From Henricia sp. BOLD:AAB3569 (lineage: Eukaryota > Echinodermata > Asteroidea > Spinulosida > Echinasteridae), in assembly GCA_037783545.1 (NCBI GenBank), contig JBBELK010000064.1, positions 1,054,001 through 1,118,000 on the forward strand: a DNA stretch of 64,000 nt, in the 5' to 3' direction. Made by a program: the position numbers and the translations under genes. Shown in pieces: positions 29,905 through 58,298 of this stretch; position 1 is the stretch's first letter, and every line of letters begins with the position of its first letter. A model generated the notes under the pieces. It searched no databases. It saw only the letters and a program-made list of their open reading frames with translations, and was not told the DNA's origin.

Positions 29905-29931
29905 TGATTTCGTCGTCACCAACAGAATATG
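29905..29931 (+). other. Start-codon context of the kinase gene
   Basis: An in-frame TGA lies at 29905-29907, seven codons before the ATG at 29929, so translation of this exon cannot begin further upstream in the same exon. Position -3 of the ATG is A, which suits initiation. A possible 3' splice site (CAACAG) ends at 29925, so a non-coding 5' exon further upstream is possible. I see no convincing TATA box or other core promoter. Confidence 0.55.
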
Positions 29932-30060: not shown

Positions 30061-33000
30061 GTAGATTGTAAAAAAAAAATATTATTTAAAAATGCGTGCA
30101 CGGTTCGTGCTGCGTGTACATGAAAACGTATGTAAATAAATACGTTACGTACATTTACACATACATGTATGTACATTTAAATGAAAATCGCTGTACATTT
30201 TGAACAAAAGTGAGATATCGGCAAGTAAAATCATCCTATACTTGAAGTTGCAACGCCGAAAGATGTAATCTGAGCAAAGCTCCAACAAAGCTCAAATTGC
30301 AGTTGTTGTTTCGTAATTTGGTGAATTTTTTAATTTGTTGTCAATTTTTTATTGTTTTTTTATGGTGTAAGTTGGCCGTTATTCTTTTGGCAAGGCATTA
30401 TGGATTTTGAGTTATATTGTTTGGTAAAATGTGAGACGATTGGGCGTCTTGAGCGGAGTATACAAAGGCTGGTCGAATGTTACGCCTTCTGTCTTGCAAG
30501 TGAATGAGCCACCCTATTTGGTGCAAGATATGAGACATTGTTCCCCTATTGTGTGTATAGGGGAAGTCGTACGTTAACAAAGGGGAAGAGTGTGATGAGG
30601 TATAGTATAGGGGCGGTAGGGGGAGAGTCACTCTGTACTCATCATATCTTGCAGCATGTAAGCCACGCGGCGTGTGTATGTAGACTCTACTCAAGTTACC
30701 AAATTATCGCCCAAATTCACGAGGCCTTGTCAAAAGGCTAGTTGGACCTATAGCATGACAGATCTGCGTCATTTAAGATGGATTTTCCATATTGTGGGAT
30801 CAAAACAAGAAGGTGGGCCTACCATATTCCAAAAAAAGAAAACGACGAGTTAAAATAATATGTTGCTGGCACTTTACTTGAGTCACATTTTCGGGTTTTG
30901 CAGGGTGAGGTGATGGTTTTGGGGGAGTGTGGACGTTGGCGTGATGGAATTACGAATTTATGTATAGGGGCACACACAAGTTCAAGTTGTTTAGGCTAAT
31001 GACTCCAACTCATGCCACTTTATCGTCTTCCGTAGGAGAGCCCGAAAAAATTACTATAACTGACTTTGTAGACTATACTAAAGTGAAATGTTACTGGTTC
31101 TAAACTAAAACCAGTGAACTGTTTCACTGCGCTTCACCAATGGAAGCGTCATATTACCAGCGAATGTTTTAACTCAATTACCATGGTAACTGACGTCACA
31201 CTCGAGTAGTCTACAGACGATGTGCCCTTTGGCGTCACAGCAAACCAAAACATGCCCGGCGTTATGTGCACGCATTAAGTTTTGCATAAATTTAGTTTAG
31301 GAATAAGATCGCCTGTCAAATTGTAATTTAATTATGTGACCTTTGGCATTATTACCAAACCAAATTTATGCAAAACAGGATGCGTGCGCATAACGACGAC
31401 CAATTTTCAACAAAGGGCGGTTTAGATATTAACAAAGAGCACATCGTTTATAATTGAACTATTTAATTTGGCCGGAACGCGGTCTAGTCAACGTTGGGGG
31501 TCGGATCTTGTCAACCGCTTGGAACCATCGCTCAGGGTGTCACTGTACCCGTCCTGAGTACGCTGTGTCAAGACGCGTGGGCGAACCACGAGTGAACTAT
31601 GATTGTTGCTTGAAACCGTCCCAAGTGTGACATTTTGTTATTACAGAAATCTGGTGAGAGGGTTGCTGTGAAGGTTTTCAACAATGTCAGCCACCGGAGA
31701 CCAGACAGCGTGCAGGAACGCGAGTTTGATGTTCTGCTCAAACTCAAACATTCAAACACCGTCAAACTACTCGCCATTGAGGAAGATGTGAGTTTACATG
31801 AACATCCTTGCTTTAAAAAAATGTGTATAGATACATTTGTTTTTGGATGGGACCGGTATCATATCAATTTACGATCATATTTGTTTGTCATAAAATTGTT
31901 CATTCGTCCAGTTGTGGAGTGGTGCGCGCAGTTATGGATGAATTTTCATCCTTTCTGCCGTGCATCTAGGACGAGTTTCCCCGGGTTGGGGACCTAGTCT
32001 CGCCGACACGTAACATGTCTTAACTGTTCCTTTCATGCCTTAACTTTATTATGCATGAAATGATTGTTCTGTTATTTTTTTGTTTTACTGTAGTCTCATT
32101 CTCGAGATCGCGTCATTGTCATGGAGCTATGTACTGGCGGTAGTCTCTTCAATGTGCTAGACAAACCGGAGAATGCCTTCGGGCTGGAAGAGGGGGAATT
32201 CCTCATTTTGCTACGAGATGTCAGTAAGTTAAAGCCAAGTTAGAAACATTCCTTTTTCCCCTTCTCCTAAATGTCCAAATGTGTATAGATTTTATCACAG
32301 TATACCCAATACTATAACGACAGTGAAGAGAAACGCGTAATAAAATGAATGGCAGATGGGTGCTGACTGTTTTTCAAAGTGTGAAAAGTGGGTGCCGTCA
32401 GTTTTTCAAAGTGTTGTGATTGCATTTGACCGAGATTGGGAGGGAATTCTTCGTGTTTGACGAGGGACGACGCCATAAATATGTGCCAGTTACTAAATAT
32501 AAACCTGTTATGTGATATGTGAGCGAAGAAGGTATATGTGTCATGTTTCTCGTAAAGACCATTAAGGTGTGTGTTATGGTACTGGTGTGTGACAGTGCAG
32601 CCTTCCAAGCTTTACCCGCGCGTGGTTATGATAATGAGCCAAAACCTTCGCGGGGGTCCCGCACCGAAATTCGGTGCGGCCTCAACCAATCAGTGACGAG
32701 CTCTCATCGCATGTACCCAGAACCTACGGCCGAGCATCCCCAGTAGGTCTGGGTACGAGACTAAAGTGTGCATGCTCAATATGTAGAAAATTTGTTGATT
32801 TGGAGGGTGCCAGACTATTTTTAGCGTTCCAAGCCTCGTCGTTTTCAAACGAGGCTTCAAGTGGAACCCATAGTCTGATACCCAGGGGCGGATCCAGGGG
32901 GGTGGGGCGTGGGGGGCGCACGCTGCCCCCCCCCCCCCCCCCCCCCCTTTTCAAAAAAAACAAAACACCACTTTTTGTGCACACTTTCTTTGCTTAAAGT

Positions 33001-39000: not shown

Positions 39001-42000
39001 GAGAAGTATCAGTCATTGGAAACTTAGTATACTCTATTCGGGTTGAAAATTTGAGGTGTATACCCCTCGCTGTGGTGTAAAAAAAAAAACACGCGCCCGG
39101 CCCAAACCTGCAAAACATTTTTTTTGCCAATGTCGGAGTGTTGCGTATATATTGTATTTTCTACTTGCGCGATGCCGTCAAATTAGCCTTTTGTGTGTTT
39201 CGCATGAATAGCGTCTGGTGTACTGACGTACTTCCTTTCACATGCACACTTAGTATCCACTCGATCAGACTAAATTTGTGTTGCTACATGTATGTGGTGC
39301 ACGCGGCAGGTGTAAAGTACAGAATCAATTCTTTGTTCACCGTAGGGGAAAATAGCGTAAAGCAACCAGACTGTTGGCTGCTTGAAAATGGCGTGCACCA
39401 CATAGCAACAACTGCGTAGTGTGTGACTTCCAAAACTGCACCTCCTTTTGAAAGTGAATTAAGAATTCGGGGCGACAGCCATTATGCAAAATGTTACACG
39501 CAAAAGGCTAATTGACTATAACAGCCAGGCTGGACATGCATCATTCCGTCGTTATTATGTCGCAGGATAGGCGAAAGAACGAATTCAGTAGGGGCACAAA
39601 ACCTATACCAAGGGGAGGTACTACATGCACGCAAACATGCAAAAAAATGTGTATTTTATACTAATCAGAAGAGTTGGCTTTAATCTTGTTTGGCAACGGT
39701 ACGCCCTAACCCGGGACGTATTCGAACCGACACGTGAACGAGATTTTTACTCAAGAACAAGAAGAACGAAGGTGCTTCGCTCGTTCCCACCGCTCATACT
39801 AGGCGCTGGTACGGGCTGATGTGCCTTCACAGATTTCTGTGACGGAAACACGTGACACAAAGGTCACATATTTTTTAAATTAATAAATAGTATATTAACA
39901 CTTATATATCAAGTGCAAAAATCAAATTTACGAATAAAATGAGTGTATTGTGTGCGAGACCTACCATGTCTGAAGGAACAATTGTTTTTACGTCAGTTTA
40001 CAAGAAAAAGACGTGACCTCGTGGTCACGTGTCGTATACAATTTTGGCCAATGAGCGCCCAGTATGGGCGGTGGGAACGAGCGAACGAAGATGCATGACC
40101 AACAACGCACAGAAGTTCGGAAATTGTTTAAAAATTACAACTCATACAAGACAGCTAGCCAAGCATGCATATTTGCATCAAAACTCATTTTGGATAGAGC
40201 GAAAAAGTAAAACAACTGAAAGATATTGAGGTAAAAACTGATGAACTCATATAGACAGAAATACCTCTTTGCCTTACATTTCGCGTTACAACGGTTCCGT
40301 ATTTTCAATGATGCAGTCGCTGTAGGCCTATGTAGTCGACATCCCTTAAGTATCTTAGGCTGGATTCACACTGAGCCTTTTTTGACGCACGTCACTTTGA
40401 GAAAAAAACGGTGTGGGTGGAATTTGCAAGTGAAACAACGCACTCAAAATCCCAGAATCACAGAAACACACTTGAAATTCCGCCAATGTTGATTCTGTGG
40501 TTTTCAGTGCTTCGCTTCACTCCGAATTCCCTCCGCGCCGCTTTTTCTTTCTTCAAAGCGACTCGCGTCAAATTAACGCGCAAAAAAGCCTCAGTGTGAA
40601 TCCACTCGTAGAAGCGGCGGTGGTAATGATGGCCTGTTGCAATATCTCATGTAGGTCAGGGCATGAAGCATCTTCAAGATAGGGCCGTGGTGCATCGCGA
40701 TCTCAAGCCTGGCAACATTATGTGTTGCTACCAACCAGACGGCTCGCCCATCTACAAACTTGCCGACTTCGGAGCAGCACGTGAACTCGCCGAGGGAGAG
40801 AACTTCGTCAGTATATACGGCACGGAAGAATATTTGGTAACTGTTATTTATGCCCAGCAATGGGAGACGTTTGAGACGCTTGGTGGCAGCAAACAAACCG
40901 GTCCTTTTCCATTGTCGCGTCATATTGAGCATGCGTATACACTTTACCTCAGACGTGACGTAAACCATGGAAATAGACCGGTTTGTTTGCTGCCACCACG
41001 CGTTTCAAAAGTCTCCTATTAGACAAATACCTTAGCTTTCCGCATATCCATCTGAGGTGAAATATTGGGATAATGCACAAAATGATGTACGAAAACGCAT
41101 ATAAAAAATATGATTTCCTGATATCTTACAGATACCGTTGAACGACGATGTGTGTTTTTACAGGTCATTTGTTGGAAAATGTTAAAGATAGGAAACAGTG
41201 CAGTGATGTATCCATGTTCAATATTAAAATAAAGGAGTATACAAAGTTAGGGTCGTGCCTTTGAGTCACTTTCTGGGAAAATTTGTTCAAGATATGGCAT
41301 GCAGAAAATATGTCTTTCCATGACGTTGAGACAGAATGAAAATGTGACATTTTTTTCATTTGCACAAAGTGGTCAACGAGTGAGCAACAAGTCGTGGTTC
41401 ATGGCATGGTTCATGCTTTGGAATCTTTAGTCTTGATGGAGAATGACACCTTTCAATTATTTGATAAAGTGGTGGTTACAGATGTAACTGGGACACCACG
41501 CCAATTTAGCACAAATTATTCACTCCGACTCTGAAAGTGTTCTTGTTGAATTTAAAATTAGTGCACAGTTCTAAACCTCAGCAATATTCTGTAATCTAGA
41601 TTTTTGTATGGTGCATGAAAATCTGTCGGGGAAAAAATCAAATGTCACAACTGCGAAATTCCATTTCGTTGACTCCTGTGTTTCAAAATCGACTCGGGTG
41701 TAACGGAGCACTGTGACCCAAATACAAATTCGCCAGCCGTCGTGACTCATTTTGAAAGAAGACTAAACAAATACATTTGCAAATAGGCGAGGCATATCCT
41801 ACTTATTTTGTGCATGAGTTAGTGGCTAAATTATATAAATATTTTGTAAACAAGCGCGTCGAGAAGGAAATGAGCTATAGTGTGACCATAAGCTTTCGTA
41901 GCAACAACTATATATTTTTCATCAGATGCAGATGTTTGCATCTGATGCAGATGTTTGCATCTGATGAAGTAGTTGTTGTTACGAAAGCCCATGCTCAAAC

Positions 42001-43356
42001 TCATTTAAAGGTAGTATACTTGTTTGATAAAGTGTTAAAAACGGCATGATTTCCACTGGTATCTGAAAGCATAGGTCAAGAAATATACCTTGTAGAAATT
42101 TCAGCCACATAGATGCAGTATTAGTAATCATTTACTTGAAAAATCCAAGTACGGTTTTTGTGTACGAATGAATGGCTCCAAAGATCGCCTGCAGGATTTA
42201 AATAGTTTTGTAATTTTTCTCATGAATGGGGCAATTCAGACGAAATAAATTCACAGGATGATTACTACCATTACCATCTTGATAACAGGTAGGCCTAAGC
42301 TTATATATTAATATAATAATTCAGAAATATTTTTGGAGGATAATTACCAAACAAGTAGACTATATACCTTTAAGTTAGTCCTAAAAAGCTATATACAGTT
42401 GAAGTCAGAAGTTTACATACATGTACACCACTACCATCATCACCCAAAATGGTAAACAGGACTACCGGAACCATTGCAAGGTGTGCAAGCTATGTTTTAA
42501 GTACTGCAAGCACGTCAGGAATTCCACAAAATCACGACTTTAGTAAAGACTGTTTCAAAAATGGTGGCAACGCTAGTTTAAGCACATCAGTTTTAACACA
42601 GTTGTATGTAAACTTCTGACTACAACTGTACCTTCTGAATTATTTTGTTATCAATTATTTATTTCGTATCTTTGTGTGACTTATTTCAGCACCCAGACGT
42701 GTATGAGCGAGCCGTCCTTCGGAGACCGCTGGTGAGGCCATTCACGGCCTCCGTTGATTTGTGGAGTATAGGCGTAACGTTATCGCATGCAGCTACGGGG
42801 ATGCTCCCCTTTCGACCATACGGGGGCAGGCGAAACAGAACTACCATGTGAGTTTTTATTTAGTTTTGATGTCTTCCTTATATGAGTCAATGGTCATTGT
42901 ATATACGTATACACAAAGACTTATGGGGCCGCAGTGCAGTGGGGGCGAGCATTTGGAATTTCCGAGTGTATTAAAGTTTGGTTTAGATTTTATTCATTTA
43001 TCCCGTCATCGGTTGTTACACGTACTGTATTGTTTGAAATTGACATTTTTTATAATGAAGTATATAGGCCTGGTTCCTTTTAAAAAAATAATAAAGTATA
43101 GTTAAAGCAAATCTCGTATAGTTGATGCCATAAAGGGCCTTAGTTGCCGAAGATGCCATAAATTAACAACAACAACAACATTGTAGTTGATGTAGTGTCA
43201 AGCCTAAAAGTACTGGAAGGATTAATTAGTGAGAGCACCAGGGAAAAGTACGGGAAAATCACCGTAAAATATGGGAATAACGTAGAATTGTATGGGATAA
43301 CCGTTAAAATGACGGCAGAAAGGTGCAGGCGCGGATCCAGATGGGTTTTTTTGGTC

Positions 43357-43392
<36 letters not shown>

Positions 43393-46300
43393 ACCCCCCT
43401 CCCCCGACCGATTTCATCGGCACTCGGAAAAACCCCTCACTGGTAACAATCCTGGATCCACCCCTGAGGTGGCATTTCGCTGCACACCTTTCGACCGTAA
43501 AATGGGCAATTGTTTACAGTGAATGAAGAGCCTATGTGGCTACAGTGCAACGACTTAAGTATGCTAATCTCAGCAAGAGAATCATACGAAAGAGGAAGTG
43601 AATTAGTTCAGAACTAAGCTGGTGAAACATATGAAAGTGACTTCTTCGTAGAAGGCATTGATCGCGTTACCTTTCCTTGTCTACTCTCGATCTCACAGGC
43701 ACCAGATGACATCCCGCAAGGCCTCCGGTATCATATCCGGCGTTCAGAAAGATTCAGAAAACGGGAGGATTGAGTGGAGTAGAGAGCTGCCGAAAACGAC
43801 CCAGTTGTCACAGTAACTATCAGTTTCAGACGCTTTGATTTATAATTTCGTTTAAATAATTGTTTTTACTTTGCAAGTAAATTACTGCTATGTAGCATGT
43901 ATTAAAGGGCCTGAAATGTTCAATACCTTTATGCACAGTTTTTGCTGCATATGAAGGATTACCTTCAACTTTGAGAATTTCTTCACATAAACTAACAGAA
44001 AGAGGGCGCTGTTTGGGGCATGTCACTTCAGGAACACACAGCAGAAAAGCAAAGAAAAAACATTAGACTTCAAACTGGAATTGTGGAAAAATGCTGCAGT
44101 TTCCAGCCTTAGTTTTTTTCATGGTTTACAACAGGCAACATGTAAAACAAACCTAAACCGTCATGGGTTACAAACGTTTCAGCAAGTTGGAGAAAATTGT
44201 GGAAACTTTTGTGCACAGTTGAATGAGATTTTCCTGTGTTTTCCTATTGCTCATACATATGTAATTTTTCATTGGCATAAAAATCAAAAACCTTGATTTT
44301 AACCCCCCCCCCCCCCCCCCCCAAACAACTTCCAAGTAGGGTTTTTATAATGGACTATATAGTTCCATATAGCACAGATTTCATGGATAAAAACACCATT
44401 TCAGGGGCCCTTTAAGAAGAAACTATTGCTAAAAATGAAAATCCAAGTACCTTGATCAGTTTAGAGGGGCTCCCTGTTGTCAGTTAACACTGTTGACTAC
44501 ATGGAAACACGCGTCACCACGCGCTTCAGCGATATATCCCTTGTGCCTGAACGTTTTTGAGGGGGAAGTCTGATCATTCAATGTTGTTTAGTATTGTGTA
44601 TTATGTCGACTTTTGAAATTTATGCAGAAGTTTACCTCACCAATAAGTCGATTTCGTAAAACTAAAAAGTCACCTTGTTCAATGAAATTATTTTGACAAA
44701 ACATGTAGAAGGTGTACTTAACAAGCGAGTATAAATCAACACGTACCAATACAAGTTACATCGTGTAGAATAGTTTTCTCCTGTCAATACATTTCACAGT
44801 ATCAGTCCATATACGGGGGTACCTCATATCGATATCAGAATATTACAAAGTGTGGCACTCGGCATAGCCTTAACTATATGAAGGAAGATCTACAATTGCT
44901 TTGTTTTTTTTCTGCTCGCAGGGGACTACGGTACCTCGTTGAAGAAATGTTTGCCGGACTTTTGGAGTGTGACGTCAGCAAAATGTGGTCATTCTCAACA
45001 TTCTTTAACTTCTCGCAGTCCGTTGTAAGCAAAACGGTTATCGACGTTTTCTACGTGCAAACCTCTCAGCTTTTAAAAGTCTACGTGGATCCCTCGCATA
45101 CGTAAGAATTTGTTTGGTGATATTTTGCACTATCAAAAAAATTAAACTCATAATATAGCCTTTATTTTTCAGCGATATTAAGATTTTTACTTTTCTTTGG
45201 AGCTACCTCAGATAACGTTCATCTTTTGAAAATCTGAGCGACTTTTCGTAAGTATATACGAAGTGCATCGGATAAGTCAAACTCGGCTGTTAACTCTACA
45301 CGCCAGCTTACTCAACGCAAGAGATGCTTCCCGTAAAATAAAATAAAAATAAAACGGTGCCTAACTTATAGAATCTGAGCTTATGCACCATTTGTGTACA
45401 GACTTACTTGTACAAAACGCATATGCTAAGCTTGACACGTCAAAAAAAAACCACGATTGTCTTTGGCTGGTATATTGCATCTGTAGGGACCTACTGCATG
45501 AAAAGTTCCTTTTCAACAGAATGTTTTACTGAATCATTTTTTGTAATTGCAGTTTTGCGGAGTTCCAAGAACACGTTGCCATACAGACAGTTGTACAATC
45601 TGCCAATCAGATGCTCGTCTTCGATGACGCCATATTCTACCCAGACTCGACCATACCATGTCGCTCATTTACAAAGACTTCACCGGAAAACCCTGTGCTG
45701 TTGTTCAGTCAAACATTTCATGGCTCAACTTCGCCGATTTTACCTGTCGTCCGTAAGTTTTGTGCCGTAGAGGGGTTTTGCAAGCCGACGGGTATACAAG
45801 CAAACGCATGCGTTAAGCTATCAGTAACCCATTGTGGTATTTAAGTGTAAGCTAAAATGAGCCTATTTCCGACAGCGAAAGAAAGTCCTCATTTTCATCC
45901 GAAACTTCAAAAATGCAAGCGCAACAAAAAATGAGGAAACGACACCATAGATATCCGATATTTTAATATAAGCGGTTTTATCAAACAAACTCGTTGTTTA
46001 CGACGCAGAAACCGAAGAAACGTGCGACGTATCCGTTGCGCTATACCGAAACCCCTGTAATATCTCACAGACACCCGTATAAATGCATGGATGTTGGATG
46101 GTATGCATATATATAATATTCATTAACTCACATATTTTTTCAGACGTTTTATTTAATGTTTTGTTTTCCAGCTTCTGTACCGCAAGTTCAGACCAAATAT
46201 TCATTGTCTTCTGACGCACTTGCCACAAAGGTACGGATGTCCCATAATTTTCCACTCAATTAATTCATGATAATTATATGTCGTGATTGTATTATAAATA

Positions 46301-49300
46301 TAGAATTTCTCACACGGTATCGCTGCACGGCACAATATTTGGTAGGGAATCTTCGTTGTATCTCTGCTTTTTTTCTTGGCCGAATTTTCTCGTTAGTCTG
46401 TCCTATCCATGGTGTCCTATCATAGCTATGATAGGACACCATGTTCTATCATAGCTGTTCTGTGATGTAATCATGGCGCACATGACGTCATTATGTCCTA
46501 GGTCTATTGGTAGCGGTACAAATTAAAAAGAAAGGGTGGTATGCCCATTTTGGATGGAGGAAGTCCGTCACCAGCGCATTTTCATCCAAAAAGGCTTTGA
46601 TTTCCGGGAAGTCCAGTTCTTCCTTAATTATTTAATGTTTGGTTTGCTTTGGGTTTTTTTCAGAGAAATATTTCCACCTTATTCTGTTGGAAAAGAAAGC
46701 AGGAACAACTTCTTTTAATGCAGAAACTGCACGATAAAGCTGTTAAGGCTTTTACGTAAGTATAGTATTTGTTTTCATTTGGTTCAAAGATTGAGGGTAT
46801 TGGGAATGCGTTTGGAGAAAGGGATAACATCCACATTTGCAGATGTGGTCAATGAAACTGGATATTTAAAATTAATCACGATTGTTGTTCGATCTTCGTA
46901 TGTCATTTTCGTCGTGAGTGACAGCTAGGATTCGCTAAATCTGAATTAATTTTGAGTTAAATCTTAGTTAAATACCATACCGTAAAGTGACCAACACTGA
47001 ACAAATGGTAGTTGAGCATACACGTTCCAATGTTGGTCATGCATGATTCTCCTCTTGGGAGGGGGGAGGAGGGCGGATTTTGATATAAGCTCGACTTTTG
47101 TTTCGTATACGATACCAAACATTTTCCATACGCGACGTGTTTACATTAAGCACATTATTGGCGGGTCAGTTTCCAGTCGGTTCTGGTTTTTTTTAATGCC
47201 AGCATGGTTCGCTTATAAACTTAACTTTTGATTCCCATTTTTGTATCGTGTGGACAGTCACGTGGTCAAAGACGAAGACAGACATCTACAATACTACCTT
47301 GTAAACTTGGAAGTCCAAAAGCGGACGCTTCCACTCTTGCTAAAGAACGTAGACACGCGTGTGAGTGGTCTACTCCGGATTTGCCAGTCGTGTCAAGGTC
47401 TTTTCAATGGAAATCGTTTGCACGTAGACCAGCTATATACCTCCTTGGAAAACCTTGAGGAAGAGACACATATGAAATTGGATGATATTCACCAGGTGAG
47501 CATCGTTTACCGTCATTATGTCCTTTTCATAGTGATTTATTTTCGCTTAGATTATAAGTTTTTATTTTAAAATTGGAAATTGCCGAGGTAATACATTTAT
47601 AGCACTGCACTCTTATAGTGCTGCACTCTTCTCGAGATTCGTGTGAACAAATGTGCCATCGGGTGAGATTCGAACCCAGGACCTGCATTCTAAGCAGACG
47701 CATGCAGAGAAAATATATTAACTTCCTTCGAATAATAATTGTTTTCAGTTACATTTTCCCATTTTCTTGTGAACCTATCACTGGGGATGAGGCTGAATAT
47801 ATATACAACAAAATATAGAGATCAAACAAGTACAACTGGGGGAGGGGAGCAGTCGAGTTGGCGTTTTGATTACTCCCCGCCTTTCACCTCTTGCGTCCCT
47901 GGTTCGATTTGGATTGGGTTTTCAATCCCTATAGGATATTGCCTTATTGGGGGTTTTCTCTCACTTCTGAAGCCGTATCCATTTCTTTAATATCTCAAGT
48001 TAAAGTAATAAACATAGCATAAAGAACATTAAATTGTCGTAACATTGGCAATAGTCACCAGTACAAATCCATTTTTTGAAGTTTATTCACAAAGGCTCGA
48101 ACTCTTGTTTTTCTTTCAATTATGGAGTTCGTTTGAAATGCAACTCACCGGTGATAAATTTGGGAGAATTTGTTTGGTTTTCTTCCAAAATGATGTACAC
48201 CGCAGGAAAATTCCCAATTTGCTTTAGAGTTTACAGTGCTTTTCGAGAGTATTAGTGTCTGGTAAATCCCTGAAGATAGTGAATATGGTAGGCCTACAGG
48301 GTGTGGCACTAGTCAGTGACTTCGGCCACACAATGCAGAGCAGGTAGCGTTAATGCTACAGTGAAACTTTGGCCACCGTTGCGTCCAGGAAAACCGGCCA
48401 CTGTGCACGCTGAACAGGTGCATGACACCTTCACAAAGGTCGCACATAGCCTAGCTCTTTATCCCGGTGGCTACTGTGATCGGGTAATTTTCGGGTTTGA
48501 CGATACATGTACGTACAGAAGGCAACAAATATGCAAGAAAAAGAATCCGTTGGATTGTCTTGACGTCGACGATGATTAAATTAGAAGATTGTTGATGGTC
48601 TACGACACGCCGGGCCACAAGCGTTAAAACGAAACCCAACAAGGCCCTTTTCGAAACGACCAAAGCCACATCTGTAGCAAGTAGCTTCGGACCACTCGTG
48701 ATAACTCGAACTGTCGTTGAAATATTATGAAATCGTCGTCGCCCTAAAATATAAAATGTTACATGCAAAAAATATAATTAGAAGATTTGTGATGGTCTAC
48801 GACACGCCGGGCCACACATATGCAGCACGATATGTGGCAGAGGGTATCCCCCTACCATTATTCCCCCATTGTGTCTCAAACATCCAAGGAATTTCAAAGG
48901 AATTCCTTTAAGTTTTTAGGGGGAAATGATGCGTTAACAAAAGAGAGTGTTGAGGTATAGGGGCGTTAAGGGGGAGTCCCTTTGCCACATATCGTGCTGG
49001 GTATAGGGCCACAAGCGTTAAAACGAAACCCAACGACCATATAGCCACATCTGCAGCAAGTATCGTCGGACAATTCGTGTTAACTCGAAACTATCGTTGG
49101 AAAATTACGAAATCGTCGTCGCCCTAAAATATAAAATGTTAGATGCAAAAATCAAATGGTTCATAGTCCAGATTTGTAAAATCGCTTGCGTGGTATGCGC
49201 AGGTTGCGCTATAATGGCAGTAAATGCCGTAAAAATTGTGCTGTATAACCACTTTTGACTATTTGTGAAATTGGTTGCAGCAAAGCGGTTGCTATTGTTG

Positions 49301-52300
49301 GACTATTTTCGAGCGCTGCACCAAGGATCCCATGGTGTTCTGGTGTCGGATATGTGAGGTATAGAGATGCCAAATGTACGACAAAGAAAATTCGGTGAAA
49401 CTGGAATTCGAAGCCGGGTATTTGTTGGTCATTTATCTCAGCCTTAAAATATGAAGCATTACTGATTAAAACTTTTGGGAAGAACTTATTAGGTAACGTT
49501 ATCGCTAGCTGACGACGGTATGGCACATAATAAGGGATCCAAAAAACCTCTGGCAAGACATATTGTGCATCGTGTAGAACTTTAAATATTCCAGCACCTG
49601 GCCTCCCTGGGACCCGCACTCGAGAGCAGCCAATGGCAATAGCTCCCTTGCTCACTATCTTGATTTGGTCTTATAAAAAATGAAGATCAAAAACTTCAGA
49701 TTAAGAGAGTACGAGGCCTATATAGGCCTACTTTGCTTGGAACGCCTGCGCCGTCCAGGACAGTCTGGTGCCTTCAGCATTTTTAGATTTTATAAAGTGA
49801 TACAGTTGAAAATGGGTTCTGCGTCAATCAGGACGTGGACAACTTGACATTGACCTCTTGTTGGAGAAAACAAAAGTGGGTACATTTGTTCATAGGCCGT
49901 GTTGGAATAAATATTTGGCTACGTCCTGAAATTACTTATGAGTCTACAGAAAATGATGAAGTTGTCTACCTTGCGTCTACTGTTGACTCATTGGAGTGAT
50001 TTCAAGACGTTGAAGTGAGAGATTATAACAATTATAGTCCGAACGTATAGCCTGTAGAATTGAAGATATCTTAGATGTCACTAAAGAGACCTTACTGCGG
50101 CCGGGAGAAAATCAGCGTTCTAAAAGTAACCAAGGCCCCAAAATCTTTCAAGTTATTTCCCTTTTCCCTTTTCTAGCTCTGTTGGCGGCACGATGAGGTT
50201 GCCGAGCTTCTACATGCTACCCACAGGGAAGTAGTAGATCAAGATAAGCTGACGAAAGCGTGGACCGAGCAGACTCGGTGTCAGACAGCAGACAAATGGT
50301 ATGACTTTGGGGAACCCTCTGGAGCGACGGAGCCACCCACTATATACAGGATTCAAACAAGATCTCACCAGAAAGCAGTGAAACTTGAAAATAAGTTGCT
50401 GTAATAGCCCGTTCGTCCTGTGTCGGTCTGGATGTCCGTTCCTGCTAATCGACACAAGTTCCTCGGGTTTTGGCCCTGTGTACATGCCATTGCATGCTGC
50501 CCATAGGTTTGCATTATGGCACCTTGGATTTTGTTCTTGCTGGCTGAGTTGTATACCTGTAAAGGTGTTTCACGTTTCGATTGGTCCTGCGTATGTGCTT
50601 TCGAAAAGCATCTTGCGCAGGTGCCAAATCACACTTGCATCCATATAGGCACCCAATGGAAGTATGTCCAACAGGTACTGAAGGTCGAGTGTACCTCACT
50701 TGCATTACCAAAAAGGAAATGATCGCCTCCAAGTGATTTCTTAAATGATATTTTCAAACACTGCTCGCTGGTATACGGTGCTCCATGAGTGCTATGCTAT
50801 ACCGAGATCATTTATCTCACCAAGTTGACTTATGAAAGCAACATCTGGTATGTGGTATACCTAATCACTATTGAAATAAAACAACCAAACTTGGGATGAG
50901 AGAAAAATCGTAAGTTGCGTTACCATGCAACACCGAGGGAAATATTAAGTCCATGGGGAAAACGTGAGGGAGTATACCATTGTGCCTTATAGCTCAGCCG
51001 GTAGAGCGTCTGTCCAGTGAGTTACGTCTCGGGTCCGGATCCCGATAAGGCCCTTACGATTTTTCTCTCATCCCAAGTCAGGTTGACTTATAACGTGGAT
51101 TATATCGTCTTGACGACAACATTTATGTTGCCAGGGCCCTATTTCATAAAACTATTTAGGAACATTCCTAATTAATTGTTCCTAAGTCACTTAGGAACAA
51201 TTAATTGGGAAGATTCCTAACTTAGGCATTATTAATTATCCTAAGTTAGGAACAATTCTAAGTTAGGAACAATGCATAAACTATACAGACTACACATTGT
51301 ATGACTGAGTTTGAACACTCTTTCTCTCCGTCTAGCTCGCCTATTTTCCCTGTCAAGTAGGCCTAGAGCCATAAACATAGCAAAATTGACATGTACACAG
51401 TTGACAAGCAAGCAAACTGAAGCAGTGTTTAATTTTCCCGCCAAATTGTCATGTGATACCTAACTTTAGGTATGATTATGATCAGTCCTAAAGTTAGGAA
51501 CAATTTCAACCAAGATAGGAACGATTTTTTACCTAAATTGTTTTATGAAATAGAACTTTAGGAATGATCCTAAAGTTAGGAACAATTTGGATTTAGGAAT
51601 GATAAATGTTCCTAAATCCTACTTAGGAATATTCCTAAAATTTTATGCAATAGGGCCCAGGTCGACTTCCTAGATGTCGACTTCCAAGTCGACTTCCTAA
51701 ATCTATTAAGTCGACTTGGTGGGTCTCGCCAAGTCGAATAATTGATTTAAGGAAGTCGACTTGCCAACATAAAATACCTCGCCAAGTCCACTTATTGAAT
51801 TCAGAAGGGCGCCTTGGCAACATCAATTATCTCGTCAAATCAAATTAGTAGATTGGGGAAGTCTACTTGGCAACATAAATTATCTCGTGGTGAGAAATTA
51901 TCTCGGTATTTGAACAAGTGGGATGAAACTCACATCAGCGTATATGTTGTTGATACTGTTAGAGGGCTGTTTGTTCTGTTGAAAACATGTAATGGCACAT
52001 TCTGTTTGAGACTCACCCGCATTCATAACAGAGTTGCTGAACCCTCATCGTGAAAGGCAGAGAATGAGCTGTCCGTTGACATGCAACATAATATAAACCA
52101 AGCACAAATAGCCGAAATATGTGATGGAAACAAATATCCGAATCTTTTTGGAGGAGATTAAGTTATTCGTAGTATTTTTAAATTGTGTGTGTATGATGTA
52201 GTTAATTCAATGCAAATTCCAAGAATGAATAAAAGGGTGAATTAAATAAACAAATAAAATAAACAAACAAATAGATCACGTGGAAACAGACAAGCAATCA

Positions 52301-55300
52301 AAGCACGTAGGCATATTGGAATCGAAATTATACCGATCGTGTGGCCCCATAGATGTTTCAACGGCATGGAGGAATCAGCTAAACCGATGGCACAGCCTAG
52401 ATCTGCATAAAGAAACAAGTCGTCTTCGTTGCCATTTTCCAGCCTCCTGGCACCATAGAGGACACTAAATTTGTAAACGTCTTATAAGGAGGTCCAACTA
52501 ACAAGCATCGCAGCAGACTTTATAAGATACGCTGCAAAGATCCGCCATGTGGTAAAACCAGGCTTCAGCAGATGCAGAGAGTATCAGCCACAGTTGAAAG
52601 ATCGCCGTTTTGACGAGGGATAATCAATGAACACGCACAACAGAACTTGCCTTTGTTGTTCATTTGAATGGCTTGTGGCTTGAATTAAAGCCCCTTTCAC
52701 ACATTCAAGGATAAGACGATGGATGATCCCGGAAGGCTCTTCCGAAAGCCTCTTCCGGAAGCAATACGGGGACTGCCGGGAGTCCGTACAATCCCGTACA
52801 ACAACCCTCATATCCCCTCTAGAGATCGTCGTCAGCCGTACGCAGCACGTCTGGTGCCCGTGATTGATGACGTCACAACGCCAAGAGAACACGGATGTTC
52901 CCGGAGAACGAGATTTTCGCTTCCGGGATCATCCGTCGTTCTTTCCTTGAATGTGTAAAAGGGCTTAAGACCCAGAGACCGTGGACTGGCCGCGGCGTGG
53001 CCTCGCCGTGGACTTGCCGTGGACCCGCCGTGGACTCGCCGTGGACTTTAGAGATGAAGTTTCATTCACAGTGTCACAGGGGAGGCAAAATAATGAAATG
53101 TGATAATGTGAATATTGCACCTGATTCTATTATCATTGCGGTCAGCAGAACTACATGTAGACCTATATCGTAGCTTGGGACGTTTAGGGAACCACTCGGT
53201 CGGTATATCATATTTGACTGCATGCTCGTTTTATGTCAAGAGAACGTGACAAGCCAGTACACGTAATAGACCTAGCTACACGTAATAGATCTATCCTAAT
53301 GGTGTCATGCTTTCGTTTACATTTGCACTTTTCTATGAAAGCACGGGGCCGTGTCCCCCAACGGGGTCCGATAGGAAAGCGCACATACAAACGAAATGTG
53401 ACATCATTGTGTCTTAGGTCTATTCCTGTTTGAAATTAAAAACCCTGGGTTTTTATTTTCCTATATACAGCGTGGAGCGATTTGATGTCATGTTCTACAC
53501 TCTCCTTGAAATACATTCAAACTACTGTCGGGACAGCAAGCATTCGTCTCTCTCCTTCAACGCAGAGCAGATACACAAAATGGAAAAGTAAGCTTTGTGG
53601 CTATTTTTGTTTTATTTAGCAAATCACTGAGCGACTCTGCGAAGGCCGGCAGCCGTCGGCAAAATTTGGTCTCACCCCCAATCAAAATGGTCTAGCTACG
53701 CCCCTGGGTACCACCACCATGAAGAAAATCCCAGTTCAGGGCGGAGTGAGAACCCTACCTGCACACGCCCTATTATACCGGATTTGAACACGGAAGCACT
53801 TTGCCTATTATGTCGTACACATCCTCACAAACTCACTATGTATTATGTTATAAATATGGGGTACTCCCAATGTTCTCCCGCGGTTTCATGTATTTTTCCT
53901 ATACCGCAAACCACATGCACAATGTTGTTCCATTGTATCGACAAACTTTTTTGAGGGGTTTGAGGACATGCGGTCCATTATTGGTTCCGTCGTCTAAACC
54001 CACCTCCTTGCCCCCGATATACCCAGCACGATATGTGGCAAAGGGACTCCCCCCTAACGCCCCTATACCTCAACACACTCTTCCCTTTTGTTAACGCACC
54101 AACTACCCCTAAAAGCTGAAAGGAATTCCTTGGAAATTCCTTGGATGCTTGAGACACAATGGGGGAACAATAGTAGGGCGATACCCTCTGCCACATATCG
54201 TGCTGCATATGGCCCCGGAGACCGATTCGTAAGCTCGCCCAAACGGGTGCTCATGGCGCTAACACACTCCTGGAAAGGTTCCAGGGCTCCTTTGCAATTG
54301 AGACTCCCATAAAATAATGTTCAAATGTGGAACTCCAAGTCATTGGTCCAATGTGTTTGACGTGATTTTCGGCTTGATTGTTTCACTCCTTAGACTTAAG
54401 TTCAATGAAACCTGGCCCCAGCTTGTGTCTCTTGTCAATGATCATTGTGAAGCCAACTGGTCCAACAAGCACAGCGAGATGATGGAGTGGTTGAGGTGAG
54501 CTTTCTGGGTACACCATACAAATAATTTCACAAATCAGTTTCCACAGTCCTGCTTTTGCAATGGACGCATTGCCCGACGTCTTAAAATGTTTAAAGGCAG
54601 TGTACGTGGTTAGTTTTTGCCAGACGTTTCGGAAACGGATACATCTATAGATGGTGTCTGTAAAATCATTACATCACAATACTCCCATTTTGATACCTGT
54701 AGTAAAATTACACTGCAAAAGTAGTGGCCTCACCATCCGACCCCATAAGAGGATCTTCTTCAGAGTCTTCTTCAGAGTCGATTTTTGTCTTTGACGACGA
54801 CTCAGCTAGGGTCGGAACGTGAGGCCGTTAATGTCACAGTGTGCTATTCACCTTTTGATACGGTATCCTTTGTGGATCAAGGGGAAAACGAGACATAAAT
54901 GTTATCGCAGTGTTATCGCGTGTCCTGATGACGGTAGAAATATTACCAACACTGCTGAAATGAGTGTTTAAATGAATATTTTTGTACTTTTAAACAGGAT
55001 AGTATTTCGTATTGGACCTTTCCCCTTCTACATATTTATAATACGTGTGTACATGTATATTACCTTTACGGGGAACCGATGCTACACTTCAGTTAAAAAA
55101 CAGTTCCAAATCATTTGGGTCATCCCTAAAAATAATCACTTTTTCATACAAAACAGTTTAGTACAATTTAGCAGACAGCTAACGGAAAATACCGTAACTC
55201 GCTATGTCTTTAATTATTTTTTTGTCCAGGTTGGCCTATGGATTGAGAGAAAGAATTAAAAAAGCAGATCAGCATTTGACGCCCTTGGTGTCTGCCTTCA

Positions 55301-56349
55301 CAACAAAGGAGACTGAAATTGCAACGGTATGTCAGATGTGGTTAATACTGGTGTTGTTCACAGTTGAGTTTGACTCATACTACTTTTTAAAAAAAACGTT
55401 GTTTTTTTTAATTCGTGAATATTACAAAGTCCCATTGTGGTAAAAAACGAGTATGGGGTAATAGTCAACTATATACTCAGTTTTATCCCAATGTGCAACA
55501 TGTCACCACTAGTAACAGTTTGTCTTTTTTTTCAGTTCCAACAAACATGCCAGGAAAAGATAGACAGTGCAACTAGAGATATTTTGTCTTTCCTGGATAA
55601 GGGAAGAAATCCTGATAATCTCGAAAGCGGTTATAGAACTTTCTCCAACTCTGGGGCAAATAGCAAGGTAAGGAACATGTTAGTTCAGTCAGTCTTGAAC
55701 AAAGAGCATCAACTAAATTATGATTTCACTCAATTTTCGGAATATAATTAATTACAGCCATCTGAAAGGGTTTCATAATAATTTCATAATAATTATGCTT
55801 GTATAGACCATTTGCACCAGCGGCCATGACAGTGGGTTAGTTTTCGTATTTAAATGATGTGACAATAATTATAGATCCCCAAAGTGCCTACTCGTACATG
55901 ATGCACAGTGACAATGTGACTGCCCTTTGTCATAGCCGCCTGTGCAGAGGGTCTATACGGGCTTTAACAACGACCCCGACATTTAGTATACTAGTGTGTT
56001 TTTCTTTGCAAATACATGTACATGCATGTATATAGGGTTGTAGTCGAGTCCATTACAAGTCCATCATAACTCGGAAAATGGAATTAAGTAACGACAAAGA
56101 CATGCTGAAGCACTTTTAGATTTCCACTCATCAGAGCAAAACGCAAGAATGGCTTTATGACGTTTTTGACAATTATAGTATAAGGCTAAAGGCGGAAATT
56201 ACGTGTTCAGAATGTTAATTGGTTTACAGCAGGGAGCACGCTACAGGGTTGGATTTTAGGGTAGGATGAGCAGGCCTTTGGGCCACAGTGACTTTCACTT
56301 TTGTTCATCTTGGCCACCTTAGATTGGTTTGTATTTGTGTCTTTGTTAC

Positions 56350-56382
<33 letters not shown>

Positions 56383-58298
56383 ACCCCCTCTCCCACAACT
56401 TTCCTTTTTATATTTATATACTTATCTATTTATTACCCTATTTATTTGCTCTATTGTTTATAGGAATATTCTGTTGTATTGTTGCTTGTGCTGGCCGAAT
56501 AAATAATAATAATACAGTGCATGCGCAGTTAGATTACATAGGCCTATAGCGTGTGCACAAATTCTTTTTGACGACACAGAACGGACTTAGTGAAGTGAGT
56601 GTACGTATACATTGAGCATGCGCATGCATAAAACTACGTGCTCTGGCCAGTACATGTTGTTTCGAGCATTCAGGGTGATCAAGCAAGTGTTGTCCTATAT
56701 GACAGCAGATGTGCATTCAGACTGTGTGGCAGTTTTGCGTGCATCTTTGCCGACGCGCGACGGCTGTTTGCGGGAAGCAAGCATGTTGCTGAAGATGAAG
56801 GATGGAACGTGCTCTTTTATGCGATCAGCCAGCCGTTCAGACGTCGGCACCGACATTCATAGATAACATTGTTAAGTTGTGTGGTAGGTAGTACGTCTCA
56901 AGCCTTATACTATACTGTCGATTAGCGTCATGACGCCATTCTTGGTGCAAGTGGAAAAGTGCTTTAGCATGTCTTTGTCGTTACTTAATTCTATTTTCTG
57001 AATTTAGAGCACCAAACATCCATCATAAGTCCCCATACGCCGTTACAAGTCCACCACAAGTCCCTGGGTCTTAATTGAAGTTACAAGCTATATTAAAAGG
57101 AATTCCAACAAATGCATTATTTTGTGTGTGTTCATCCTTAGCTTCTTGTTACTGGACTTGTAACGGACTTGTGCGGGACTTGTCACGGACTTATGATTTT
57201 ATCGGCTCTGGACTTGTGATACACTTGTGCAGTACAATGATATTTTTGTTTTTGCCAGATTGCAAGCCGAGGACCCTTTTTGGCAAGTTCACTAACAGTG
57301 TTACCGGAAGTCATCGACACGATGCAGTCTTGCCAAGCCGCCACTCAAACTGACCATTCTGTACAACTAACAGTTGATTTGCATGATGTCACTGCACGTC
57401 TTCGCTCACAAGGTCCGATTCTCGTCCCTAGTGAATTGAAGCAAGAGTAAGTTGTGTGTTCCTTTAATATTAGGACGTTCATTTCTAAATATAAAAGAGA
57501 ATTTCATTATTAAACCGGCAAGCACAAATGTCCTTATTACATACAGTAAAATCTCATTAATAACTCATGAGTTAAAGGAGGTGTACAGATTTTTCCAGAA
57601 AAAGGATTTCATTTCAACCTAAGAATCATATAAAATAACTCCCCAAAATACTATCGATGGGAAGAAAACGGGAAATTTGCATTCTCCAATTTGGTCAGTG
57701 GTGTAATTACTGCACTGATTTATTGAACCAGATAAATTAGTTTACAAAATATCGGTAGTTTTTTAAAGATATCCTTGAAAATAAACGGATTGAGAATGCG
57801 AAATTTCAGAATGGTAATGAGAAAAATATGACAAATGATATGGTATCAAAATCTCAACACCCATCGGAAAAAGAAGTGTTCAAAAATGTGATCTGGACAC
57901 GCTCTTTTAAACGTTTGAGTTGTACATGTACAGTAGAAAATCACATTTCACCGAAGATTTTATATAAGCTGCTGTTTTTCGCAAGTTCCTGTTATCTACA
58001 TCATCATTTTTGCAGCACCCTACCTATAAGGAGCACTATCATGCTGAAATTTACTTTGAGATACGGAGCCTCTGCAGTTATAATTTTTGGATTTCATCAA
58101 ATACGTTTTTTGTCCATTTACAGGTACGAGAGATGGTACAATGAAAGGCAGCACACCGAAAATGCAATGAACAGATGTAAATATTTGACTGAAGAAATGC
58201 TGAATGTGTCCCTGGGTGCCAGCGATATTGATGTTGATCTGTACGGATGTTCAGCGGCGAGCAATGAGGAAACCACAACTTGTCCCTTGGATATGTGA
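29929..58298 (+). CDS. TBK1: TBK1/IKK-epsilon-like protein kinase, complete gene in 18 coding exons
   Basis: Serine/threonine kinase of the non-canonical IKK family; known relatives act in the cytosol downstream of innate nucleic-acid and bacterial sensors and phosphorylate IRF-type factors and autophagy receptors. CDS join: 29929-30060, 31647-31787, 32094-32223, 40655-40836, 42690-42847, 43699-43812, 44922-45101, 45553-45752, 46172-46230, 46664-46755, 47258-47495, 50177-50298, 53471-53587, 54394-54495, 55230-55326, 55536-55667, 57259-57446, 58124-58298. Total 2559 nt, 852 residues. Seen: Gly-rich loop near 31-41, catalytic Lys53, HRD at 148-150, DFG at 172-174, activation-loop [11 protein letters not shown] with Ser187 (equivalent of human Ser172). 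Ubiquitin-like region about 336-415, helical scaffold about 430-690, divergent C terminus. Human TBK1 has 729 residues, so this protein is longer, mainly after the kinase domain. Invertebrate deuterostomes usually have one gene of this type, so TBK1 versus IKKE is not resolved. Splicing is my reconstruction and has no transcript support. Confidence 0.93.
30525..30660. mobile_element. Diverged foldback MITE in intron 1
   Basis: Ends TGCAAGATATGAGAC and CTCATCATATCTTGCA. The interior (GTTAACAAAGGGGAAGAGTG, TATAGGGGCGGTAGG) resembles 48817-49005 and 54018-54211, so it is an older or related member. Confidence 0.6.
31213..31450 (+). repeat. Dispersed repeat W, copy 3, in intron 1
   Basis: Reverse-complement match to 23333-23535. 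It has inverted ends with AAATTTRKTTTRG-type cores, and lies about 200 bp before exon 2. Confidence 0.72.
31647..31787 (+). CDS. TBK1: TBK1-like exon 2 (residues 45-91), catalytic Lys
   Basis: Begins after TTACAG and ends before GTGAGT, phase 0 at both ends. Contains VAVKVFNN with the ATP-binding Lys53, then the alpha-C region with [12 protein letters not shown] and VKLLAIEED, very close to the family consensus. Confidence 0.95.
32094..32223 (+). CDS. TBK1: TBK1-like exon 3 (residues 92-135)
   Basis: Acceptor ACTGTAG, donor GTAAGT, ends in phase 1. Encodes the hinge ([12 protein letters not shown]) and the following helix ending FLILLRDV, matching the noncanonical IKK hinge. Confidence 0.95.
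32883..33163. mobile_element. GGATCC-end MITE, copy 2, in intron 3
   Basis: Same ends as 21922-22223, with ATACC on both sides (32878-32882, 33164-33168). Two poly(C) runs and the shared GAATCCATCTAGAAGCCGTT block. Confidence 0.87.
35148..35300 (+). pseudogene. Penelope-like N-terminal fragment, left arm
   Basis: Open frame [19 protein letters not shown] then LGMNFAIP and [12 protein letters not shown], ending at a stop. The pattern (N-L-S, L-S-x-x-E/T, L-x-x-G-x-x-F-A) is that of the region before the reverse transcriptase core in Penelope-like elements. The same fragment is on the minus strand of the right arm (about 36775-36925). Confidence 0.6.
35920..36385 (+). pseudogene. LINE 3' end fragment with C2H2 finger
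   Basis: In one frame [18 protein letters not shown] and RTH (36244-36312) form a C2H2 finger of the type found at the C terminus of many LINE ORFs. A short (ACA)n tail follows at 36366-36385, as at a LINE 3' end. Upstream frames are broken. It sits in the spacer of the giant palindrome. Confidence 0.6.
36430..36590 (+). pseudogene. Penelope-like reverse transcriptase fragment
   Basis: [33 protein letters not shown] and MDKADYDN resemble the Penelope-like segment ending ILPADKG...MDKADY, with part of that motif deleted. It would follow the left-arm fragment in an intact element. Confidence 0.55.
36718..38226 (-). repeat. Right arm of the giant inverted repeat
   Basis: Reverse complement of the left arm with small differences. 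Includes a long poly(G) run at about 37040-37080 where the left arm has poly(C). Confidence 0.8.
38845..38915 (+). repeat. tRNA-like SINE head in intron 3
   Basis: TTAGTCTGGTTAGAAGAG resembles box A and CTGGTTCAAATCTC box B, about 40 bp apart. No clean acceptor stem. Confidence 0.45.
39775..40085. mobile_element. hAT-like MITE, copy 2, in intron 3
   Basis: Same ends as 26553-26945, in reverse orientation. Flanked by CGAAGGTG (39767-39774) and CGAAGATG (40086-40093), an 8-bp duplication with one change. Confidence 0.82.
40361..40604. mobile_element. MITE 50 bp before exon 4
   Basis: Terminal inverted repeats TGGATTCACACTGAGCC and GGCTCAGTGTGAATCCA-like sequence with CTTTTTTG, about 26 bp. 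No coding capacity. Confidence 0.82.
40655..40836 (+). CDS. TBK1: TBK1-like exon 4 (residues 135-195), catalytic and activation loops
   Basis: Carries [12 protein letters not shown] (catalytic Asp150), ADFGAAREL (Mg-binding Asp172) and [11 protein letters not shown] with activation Ser187. The acceptor ends CATGTAG and the donor is GTAACT. Phase 1 in, phase 0 out. Palindromic MITEs lie 50 bp before and 26 bp after the exon. Confidence 0.96.
40863..41016. mobile_element. Foldback MITE 26 bp after exon 4
   Basis: 154 bp with arms of about 41 bp (GGTGGCAGCAAACAAACCGG and complement) and four mismatches. Lies just inside the donor of intron 4. Confidence 0.85.
41868..42006. mobile_element. Foldback MITE in intron 4
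   Basis: Arms AAATGAG...GCTTTCGTAGCAACAAC and complement, with a centre made of direct repeats of GCAGATGTTTGCATCTGAT. Confidence 0.65.
42009..42369. mobile_element. TTAA element in intron 4
   Basis: TTAA at 42005-42008 and 42370-42373; ends AGGTAGTATACTTGTTTG and CAAACAAGT...ATATACCT. End sequence related to the 25730 family. Adjoins the foldback ending at 42006. Confidence 0.8.
42396..42628. mobile_element. Tc1-type MITE with Sleeping Beauty-like ends, intron 4
   Basis: Ends CAGTTGAAGTCAGAAGTTTA and complement, flanked by TA. These ends closely resemble the outer repeats of Tc1-like elements such as Sleeping Beauty. 233 bp, no transposase. Confidence 0.88.
42690..42847 (+). CDS. TBK1: TBK1-like exon 5 (residues 196-248)
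   Basis: Acceptor TTTCAG, donor GTGAGT, leaves in phase 2. Encodes [11 protein letters not shown], the APE-equivalent region, and [23 protein letters not shown] of the kinase C lobe. Confidence 0.95.
43326..43466. mobile_element. GGATCC-end MITE, copy 3, in intron 5
   Basis: Ends CAGGCGCGGATCCAG and CTGGATCCACCCCTG, AGGTG on both sides (43321-43325, 43467-43471), with a long poly(C) run. Confidence 0.84.
43699..43812 (+). CDS. TBK1: TBK1-like exon 6 (residues 248-286)
   Basis: Acceptor TCACAG, donor GTAACT, phase 2 at both ends. Encodes the C-lobe stretch with [11 protein letters not shown] and RIEWSRELP, which align with the human segment preceding the final kinase helices. Confidence 0.93.
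43916..44411. mobile_element. TTAA element, AGGGCC family, copy 2, in intron 6
   Basis: TTAA at 43912-43915 and 44412-44415; ends AGGGCCTG and CAGGGGCCCT. Matches 19975-20546 throughout, with an added poly(C) run near 44305. Confidence 0.82.
44922..45101 (+). CDS. TBK1: TBK1-like exon 7 (residues 286-346)
   Basis: Acceptor CTCGCAG, donor GTAAGA, phase 2 out. Encodes the last kinase helices ([19 protein letters not shown]) and the start of the ubiquitin-like region ([11 protein letters not shown]). Confidence 0.93.
45553..45752 (+). CDS. TBK1: TBK1-like exon 8 (residues 346-413), ubiquitin-like region
   Basis: Acceptor ATTGCAG, donor GTAAGT, phase 1 out. Encodes most of the ubiquitin-like domain, ending [12 protein letters not shown] and a proline-rich linker. 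It is less conserved than the kinase exons. Confidence 0.9.
46172..46230 (+). CDS. TBK1: TBK1-like exon 9 (residues 413-432)
   Basis: A 59-nt exon, acceptor TTCCAG, donor GTACGG, phase 0 out. Encodes a short linker with [18 protein letters not shown] that aligns with the human segment joining the ubiquitin-like domain to the scaffold domain. Confidence 0.82.
46409..46442. repeat. 34-bp perfect palindrome in intron 9
   Basis: A perfect, loopless palindrome with half-site ATGGTGTCCTATCATAG. Followed by another partial half-site. Confidence 0.85.
46664..46755 (+). CDS. TBK1: TBK1-like exon 10 (residues 433-463)
   Basis: Acceptor TTTCAG, donor GTAAGT, phase 2 out. Encodes the first long helix of the scaffold/dimerisation domain ([18 protein letters not shown]), comparable with the human helix at this place. 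Confidence 0.87.
47258..47495 (+). CDS. TBK1: TBK1-like exon 11 (residues 463-542)
   Basis: Acceptor TGGACAG, donor GTGAGC, phase 0 out. The longest exon; helical, Leu-rich scaffold domain with [20 protein letters not shown] and a heptad-like pattern. Confidence 0.88.
47640..47690 (-). repeat. tRNA-like SINE fragment, intron 11
   Basis: Minus strand CTGGGTTCGAATCTCACCC is a strong box B; box A is weak. Confidence 0.4.
47835..47940 (+). repeat. tRNA-like SINE fragment, intron 11
   Basis: Contains CCCTGGTTCGATTTGG (box B-like) followed by a GGGTTTTCAATCCC hairpin, arranged as in tRNA-derived SINEs. A weak call. Confidence 0.35.
48581..49151 (+). repeat. 197-bp tandem duplication, second copy split by a MITE, intron 11
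   Basis: Unit 48581-48777 is repeated from 48778, sharing GGTCTACGACACGCCGGGCC and AAATCGTCGTCGCCC. The second copy is interrupted at GGGCCACA by the element 48817-49005. Confidence 0.85.
48817..49005. mobile_element. MITE with 8-bp target duplication, copy 1, intron 11
   Basis: Terminal repeats contain GCAGCACGATATGTGGC and complement. GGGCCACA is duplicated at 48809-48816 and 49006-49013, and the intact site in the first tandem unit proves the insertion. hAT-like by duplication length. Confidence 0.9.
50177..50298 (+). CDS. TBK1: TBK1-like exon 12 (residues 543-583)
   Basis: Acceptor TTCTAG, donor GTATGA, phase 2 out. Reads [20 protein letters not shown], helical, with [10 protein letters not shown] aligning with the human scaffold segment. 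Chosen by phase and by the fit to exon 13. Confidence 0.83.
50890..51077. mobile_element. Foldback element enclosing a tRNA-like unit, intron 12
   Basis: Perfect 25-bp inverted repeats (CTTGGGATGAGAG...) at 50890-50914 and 51053-51077. Confidence 0.82.
50984..51051 (+). repeat. tRNA-like sequence
   Basis: GCCTTAT pairs with ATAAGGC, GCTC...GAGC forms a D-arm (TAGCTCAGCCGGTAGAGC, a good box A), and TCGGG-TCCGGAT-CCCGA forms a 5-bp T-arm with a changed loop. The anticodon stem does not pair, so it is a tRNA-derived repeat, not a working tRNA. Confidence 0.6.
51134..51658. mobile_element. 525-bp foldback with repeated CCTAAGTTAGGAA motifs, intron 12
   Basis: Ends GGGCCCTATTTCATAAAA and TTTTATGCAATAGGGCCC. 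Both arms are built of many copies of TTAGGAA/TTCCTAA at short intervals. Confidence 0.83.
51660..51895. repeat. Degenerate tandem with AAGTCGACTT core
   Basis: Repeated units of GGAAGTCGACTTGGCAACAT followed by AAATTATCTCG, with the AAGTCGACTT palindrome recurring. It directly follows the foldback. Confidence 0.7.
52689..52964. mobile_element. TTAA element in intron 12
   Basis: TTAA at 52685-52688 and 52965-52968; terminal repeats CCCCTTTCACACATTCAAGG and complement, with inner arms GGATGATCCCGGAAG. Confidence 0.8.
52982..53047. repeat. 11-bp GC-rich minisatellite
   Basis: About six units of TGGACTCGCCG with small changes, GC-rich against an AT-rich intron. Confidence 0.8.
53471..53587 (+). 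CDS. TBK1: TBK1-like exon 13 (residues 583-622)
   Basis: Acceptor TATACAG, donor GTAAGC, phase 2 out. Contains [11 protein letters not shown], a close match to the family NEEQIHKFDK motif, which anchors the scaffold-domain alignment. Confidence 0.93.
54018..54211. mobile_element. MITE with 8-bp target duplication, copy 2, intron 13
   Basis: Reverse-orientation copy of 48817-49005. Flanks GCCCCCGA (54010-54017) and GCCCCGGA (54212-54219), one mismatch. Confidence 0.85.
54394..54495 (+). CDS. TBK1: TBK1-like exon 14 (residues 622-656)
   Basis: Acceptor TCCTTAG, donor GTGAGC, phase 2 out. Helical, with [19 protein letters not shown] and MMEWLR, matching the human helix ending in EEWIRK. Confidence 0.9.
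55230..55326 (+). CDS. TBK1: TBK1-like exon 15 (residues 656-688)
   Basis: Acceptor GTCCAG, donor GTATGT, phase 0 out. Charged helix ([17 protein letters not shown]). Identified by phase, splice sites and continuity with exons 14 and 16. Confidence 0.85.
55536..55667 (+). CDS. TBK1: TBK1-like exon 16 (residues 689-732)
   Basis: Acceptor TTTCAG, donor GTAAGG, phase 0 at both ends. Ends the helical scaffold and begins a Ser/Asn-rich linker ([11 protein letters not shown]) with no clear human equivalent. Confidence 0.85.
56040..57180. mobile_element. Foldback element spanning much of intron 16
   Basis: Arms near 56070-56190 and 56900-57005 pair (AAAGACATGCTGAAGCAC, TAGTATAAGGCT and complements). 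Outer parts repeat ACAAGTCC/GGACTTGT. A long poly(C) run lies at about 56351-56382. Boundaries approximate. Confidence 0.6.
57259..57446 (+). CDS. TBK1: TBK1-like exon 17 (residues 733-795)
   Basis: Acceptor TTGCCAG, donor GTAAGT, phase 2 out. Divergent C-terminal linker ending in PSELKQE. If the donor were not used, the frame would stop at the TAA at 57448-57450, giving a shorter alternative C terminus of 795 residues. Confidence 0.78.
58124..58298 (+). CDS. TBK1: TBK1-like exon 18 (residues 795-852) and stop
   Basis: Acceptor TTTACAG; the CDS ends at TGA 58296-58298. Encodes a charged, probably coiled-coil helix ([18 protein letters not shown]) and an acidic Cys/Thr-rich tail. In vertebrate TBK1 the C-terminal coiled coil binds the adaptors TANK, NAP1 and SINTBAD; that role here is inferred from position only. 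Confidence 0.82.

Follow-up and report, generated by a model that had tools for sequence, protein, structure and literature searches.

Identification and reconstruction of the gene

The window, i.e. the whole stretch of 64,000 nucleotides of Henricia DNA analyzed here (source assembly of 740.7 Mb in 2104 contigs), raises the question of whether it encodes an intact kinase of the TBK1/IKK-epsilon type, and of whether the long C-terminal tail predicted for this kinase is genuine. Exons were called using plus-strand translation, the flanking bases and likeness to TBK1, including alignments to PDB sequences. Joining of the exons by their GT-AG sites and phase yielded an 18-exon gene at 29929-58298 on the plus strand, with a single open frame of 852 residues. 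Its introns are of the GT-AG type in 17 of 17 cases, their phases join without an internal stop, and the stop codon lies at 58296-58298. The preliminary description had given the same exon number, span, protein length and intact frame, and rebuilding from the raw sequence returned the same figures, though this rebuild was not blind to them; the evidence from homology and splice sites is independent of that. The constituent exons are:

Exon 1, 29929..30060, plus strand: start ATG, N-terminal extension of ~15 residues and glycine-rich loop (GEGATGSVF); the PDB alignment with TBK1 starts at residue 16
Exon 2, 31647..31787, plus strand: catalytic Lys of the VAVK motif (K53) and alphaC Glu (E70)
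Exon 3, 32094..32223, plus strand: kinase N-lobe and hinge (MELCTGGSL); PDB alignment
Exon 4, 40655..40836, plus strand: catalytic loop (HRDLKPGN), DFG and activation-loop Ser187 (human S172)
Exon 5, 42690..42847, plus strand: kinase C-lobe; PDB alignment
Exon 6, 43699..43812, plus strand: kinase C-lobe; PDB alignment
Exon 7, 44922..45101, plus strand: end of the kinase domain and start of the ubiquitin-like domain; Pfam
Exon 8, 45553..45752, plus strand: ubiquitin-like domain (TBK1_ULD, residues 323-401); Pfam
Exon 9, 46172..46230, plus strand: linker into the scaffold domain; PDB alignment
Exon 10, 46664..46755, plus strand: first scaffold helix; TBK1 alignment, with weak codon statistics
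Exon 11, 47258..47495, plus strand: scaffold/coiled-coil domain 1, with insertions relative to human; Pfam, acceptor score 2.5
Exon 12, 50177..50298, plus strand: scaffold domain; PDB alignment
Exon 13, 53471..53587, plus strand: scaffold domain; PDB alignment
Exon 14, 54394..54495, plus strand: scaffold domain (EMMEWLR); PDB alignment
Exon 15, 55230..55326, plus strand: end of the scaffold domain
Exon 16, 55536..55667, plus strand: C-terminal region, residues 689-699 weakly aligned to human TBK1 and the remainder unmatched; splice sites
Exon 17, 57259..57446, plus strand: C-terminal linker, unmatched; splice sites and phase only
Exon 18, 58124..58298, plus strand: C-terminal end with the stop, no TBK1 match; acceptor, phase and stop

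The start of exon 1 was assigned from the ATG alone, the PDB match to TBK1 beginning at residue 16. The acceptor of exon 11 is weak (score 2.5), yet it is the one with the fitting phase. A frame at ~46757-46860, picked by eye as a potential scaffold exon, was rejected in favor of 46664-46755, which matches the spacing of TBK1 and has a good acceptor.

Domain architecture and relationship to known kinases

Searches with profiles of the kinase, ubiquitin-like and TBK1 coiled-coil families, which had been proposed as a check of the assignment, recovered all three above their curated Pfam cut-offs: Pkinase at residues 28-296 (E 5.6e-42), TBK1_ULD (PF18396) at residues 323-401 (E 8.1e-15; 54.9 bits against a cut-off of 31) and TBK1_CCD1 (PF18394) at residues 416-670 (E 1.3e-23; 84.3 bits against a cut-off of 25.9). 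The best match in the PDB is TBK1, with 454 bits over residues 16-666, followed far behind by IKK-alpha (109 bits) and IKK-beta (103 bits). On account of the Pfam and PDB E-values, chance can be excluded as an explanation for residues 16-670. The TBK1 entries 5w5v and 6nt9 are of the human protein.

Pairwise alignment with human TBK1 revealed that the catalytic residues are retained as K53, E70, D150 and D172 (human K38, E55, D135 and D157), and that the activation-loop serine is present as S187 (human S172), as the preliminary description had claimed. In a wider comparison of 17 selected human positions, those kept are K38, E55, D135, D157, S172, K30, R54, L352, E580, K589 and G159, while I353, E355, R547 and Y577 are changed to the similar residues V, D, K and F, respectively. 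Human R357 and K401 are lost, being replaced by A and Q. These six changes were counted against a TBK1-type reading, as was the weak conservation of the ubiquitin-like and scaffold regions: pairwise identity to human TBK1 is 167/301 in the kinase, as opposed to 23/77 in the ubiquitin-like and 62/232 in the scaffold domain.

Over the kinase domain the window protein is about as close to human TBK1, with 172/314 identical positions (54.8%), as to human IKK-epsilon, with 177/314 (56.4%), whereas identity to human IKK-beta, whose sequence agrees with 4kik, is 80/289 (27.7%). An assignment to the canonical IKK-alpha/beta group could appeal to the PDB matches at 103-109 bits and to the succession of kinase, ubiquitin-like and scaffold domains, which from knowledge of the family is common to both groups. 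However, it is exceedingly improbable, as it stands against the 454 bits to TBK1, the presence of TBK1-specific Pfam domains and a kinase identity about which IKK-beta falls so far short of TBK1. The same domains and the same disparity in bit scores bear out the original classification of the gene as TBK1/IKK-epsilon-like. In a FastTree phylogeny of the kinase domain from six sequences, IKK-alpha not being among them, the window kinase branched outside the TBK1+IKK-epsilon pair with a support of 0.888; it is therefore not specifically an IKK-epsilon, and its position fits what is expected of an invertebrate pro-ortholog. Although six sequences make a small tree, it agrees with the suggestion, published in a study of a scallop kinase, that TBK1 and IKK-epsilon split after vertebrates arose (PMC9879056). 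Thus, the window almost certainly carries an intact invertebrate TBK1/IKK-epsilon kinase gene that is the pro-ortholog of both vertebrate paralogs.

Invertebrate proteins of this family have previously been cloned and studied (PMC9879056, PMC8218723). The scallop protein CfIKK3, compared here by its published description, has 773 residues as against 852 in the window protein and shares with it the kinase, ULD and CCD1 (PMC9879056). Its authors grouped it with invertebrate TBK1/IKK-epsilon proteins outside the vertebrate TBK1+IKK-epsilon pair, and it interacts with MyD88 and MAVS (PMC9879056). In the oyster, knock-down of TBK1 is reported to lower the induced expression of IRF8 and of an interferon-like gene (PMC8218723). 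The window gene is an ordinary further member of this known family, with a longer predicted tail, unmatched elsewhere, as its single unusual trait. The presence of the family in invertebrates was already known; to comparative immunology the gene contributes a further complete TBK1/IKK-epsilon locus of the kind that preceded the duplication in vertebrates.

As to copy number, it could be proposed that the gene is one of several TBK1/IKK-epsilon copies and represents an extra, lineage-specific paralog. This is very unlikely. A DNA search of its own genome with 46100-47600 matched the window alone, a result that, with a single candidate kept at the first look, speaks solely to near-identical copies. 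An exon-by-exon scan of the genome for Pkinase, in which 130 of 1071 candidates were scored, gave none in the window among the 132 matches listed, and has no bearing either way on the TBK1/IKK-epsilon reading of the gene. Several of the kinase matches occur in equal-scoring pairs on different contigs, suggesting that both haplotypes may have been partly kept in the assembly.

The probable C-terminal extension

With human TBK1 being 729 residues long, the 852 residues of the window protein upheld the earlier statement that it is longer by about 120. On this basis, the ~123 extra residues are apportioned by arithmetic as ~15 at the N-terminus, ~20 within the scaffold and ~88 at the C-terminus. 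The preliminary description had placed them in a short N-terminal extension and, for the rest, after the kinase domain; the N-terminal part (~15) stands, and the remainder can now be divided between the interior of the scaffold (~20) and the region following it (~88). The PDB alignment to TBK1 stops at residue 699, which is aligned with human residue 664. Past this point a PDB search found no TBK1 match, a vimentin coil over the last part (E 0.6) being not significant, and from exon 16 onward there was no Pfam match up to E 0.1. The description of the C-terminal linker as being without a clear human match thus agrees with the absence of any confident Pfam or PDB match beyond residue 699.

In human TBK1 the adaptor-binding end is formed by M686, M690, L693, M697, V700, L704, N707, N708, L711 and L717, with F714 being used for optineurin alone (PMC5027247). 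When nine of the hydrophobic positions were slid along the tail, the best register accommodated 6/9, and this value was reached in three different registers; the adaptor-binding helix of human TBK1 (residues 679-729) is accordingly not recognizable by this comparison, and the window protein may or may not have such a site.

The lack of homology past residue 699, which leaves exons 17 and 18 and most of exon 16 without support from Pfam or PDB, is what would be expected if the core exons 1-15 were right and the true 3' end were different, with exons 16-18 partly replaced or skipped, the protein shorter and the "novel linker" an artefact of the model. Exon 16 is bordered by phase 0 junctions at either end and could be left out with the frame preserved; in contrast, skipping of exon 17 would shift it. 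Codon statistics, trained on exons 1-14 and referred to 350 stop-free intron windows, with an exon regarded as clear at a fraction of 0.05 or less, set 9 of the 18 exons apart from intronic windows (1-4, 7 and 11-14), and those of exons 15-18 fall inside the intronic range (0.13, 0.29, 0.14 and 0.09, respectively). However, the homology-supported exons 5 (0.23), 6 (0.08), 8 (0.20), 9 (0.23) and 10 (0.57) also fail this test. Moreover, the splice sites of exons 16 and 17 are strong, with scores of 24.2 and 19.1 in a hand-set model. Among candidates that share the phase of either exon and are close to it in length, a control scan of the whole minus strand and of plus-strand positions 1-29000 found 0 with an equal score. 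The cuts of this control were post hoc, being set after the exons had been seen and at their exact scores, and the scan recovered exons 16 and 17 themselves as a positive control. With any phase allowed there were two candidates scoring at least 17, and lowering the cut by 6 gave exon-17-like candidates numbering one and two. Weighing these points, a different 3' end appears rather unlikely, and the long C-terminal tail is probably real.

The likeliest origin of the tail is a lengthening, specific to this lineage, of the stretch between the scaffold and the adaptor-binding end, which is poorly conserved. A bolder reading, in which residues ~700-852 are genuine and have taken the place of the adaptor-binding end in this lineage, with recruitment by partners other than those of the TANK/NAP1/SINTBAD/optineurin type, is quite unlikely. 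The divergent tail could show the pace at which adaptor recruitment changes under a fixed kinase core.

Predicted function

By analogy to the known members of the family, the window kinase would be expected to dimerize through its scaffold and to be recruited by adaptors or receptor complexes via its C-terminal end. Ser187 would then be trans-autophosphorylated, thereby activating the kinase, which would phosphorylate innate-immune and autophagy substrates downstream of innate-immune sensors.

Repeats and mobile elements at the locus

Scans for tRNAs and Rfam families found none in the window. Intron 3 (32224-40654) holds a large inverted-repeat element at 33262-38229, whose arms (33262-34191 and 37300-38229) are 930 nt long and 97% complementary, with further nested arms at 34177-34379/37116-37322 and 35074-35304/36732-36983. 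The G+C content is raised at this repeat (0.486 and 0.457), and five ORF pieces within it gave no Pfam match above the cut-off. It is perhaps a fold-back-like mobile element or, alternatively, two opposed copies. Upstream of the kinase gene are pieces of a retroelement integrase at 9062-10554 on the plus strand (Integrase_H2C2, 9e-14; rve, 6.5e-07, below cut-off), and RVT_1 fragments of broken retroelements are found on the minus strand at 7324-7938 (0.011, below cut-off), 62214-62585 (6.1e-08) and 63582-63917 (9.5e-14). Runs of C or G of 31-48 nucleotides occur at 22156-22186, 37037-37079, 43358-43405 and 56351-56388, three of the four lying within introns of the kinase gene. Finally, two short tandem arrays at 25913-26103 and 59335-59499, with units such as TTCGCCCCAAAACCAC and AACCACTTCGCCCTG, are alike and flank the gene at a distance of ~33 kb from each other.
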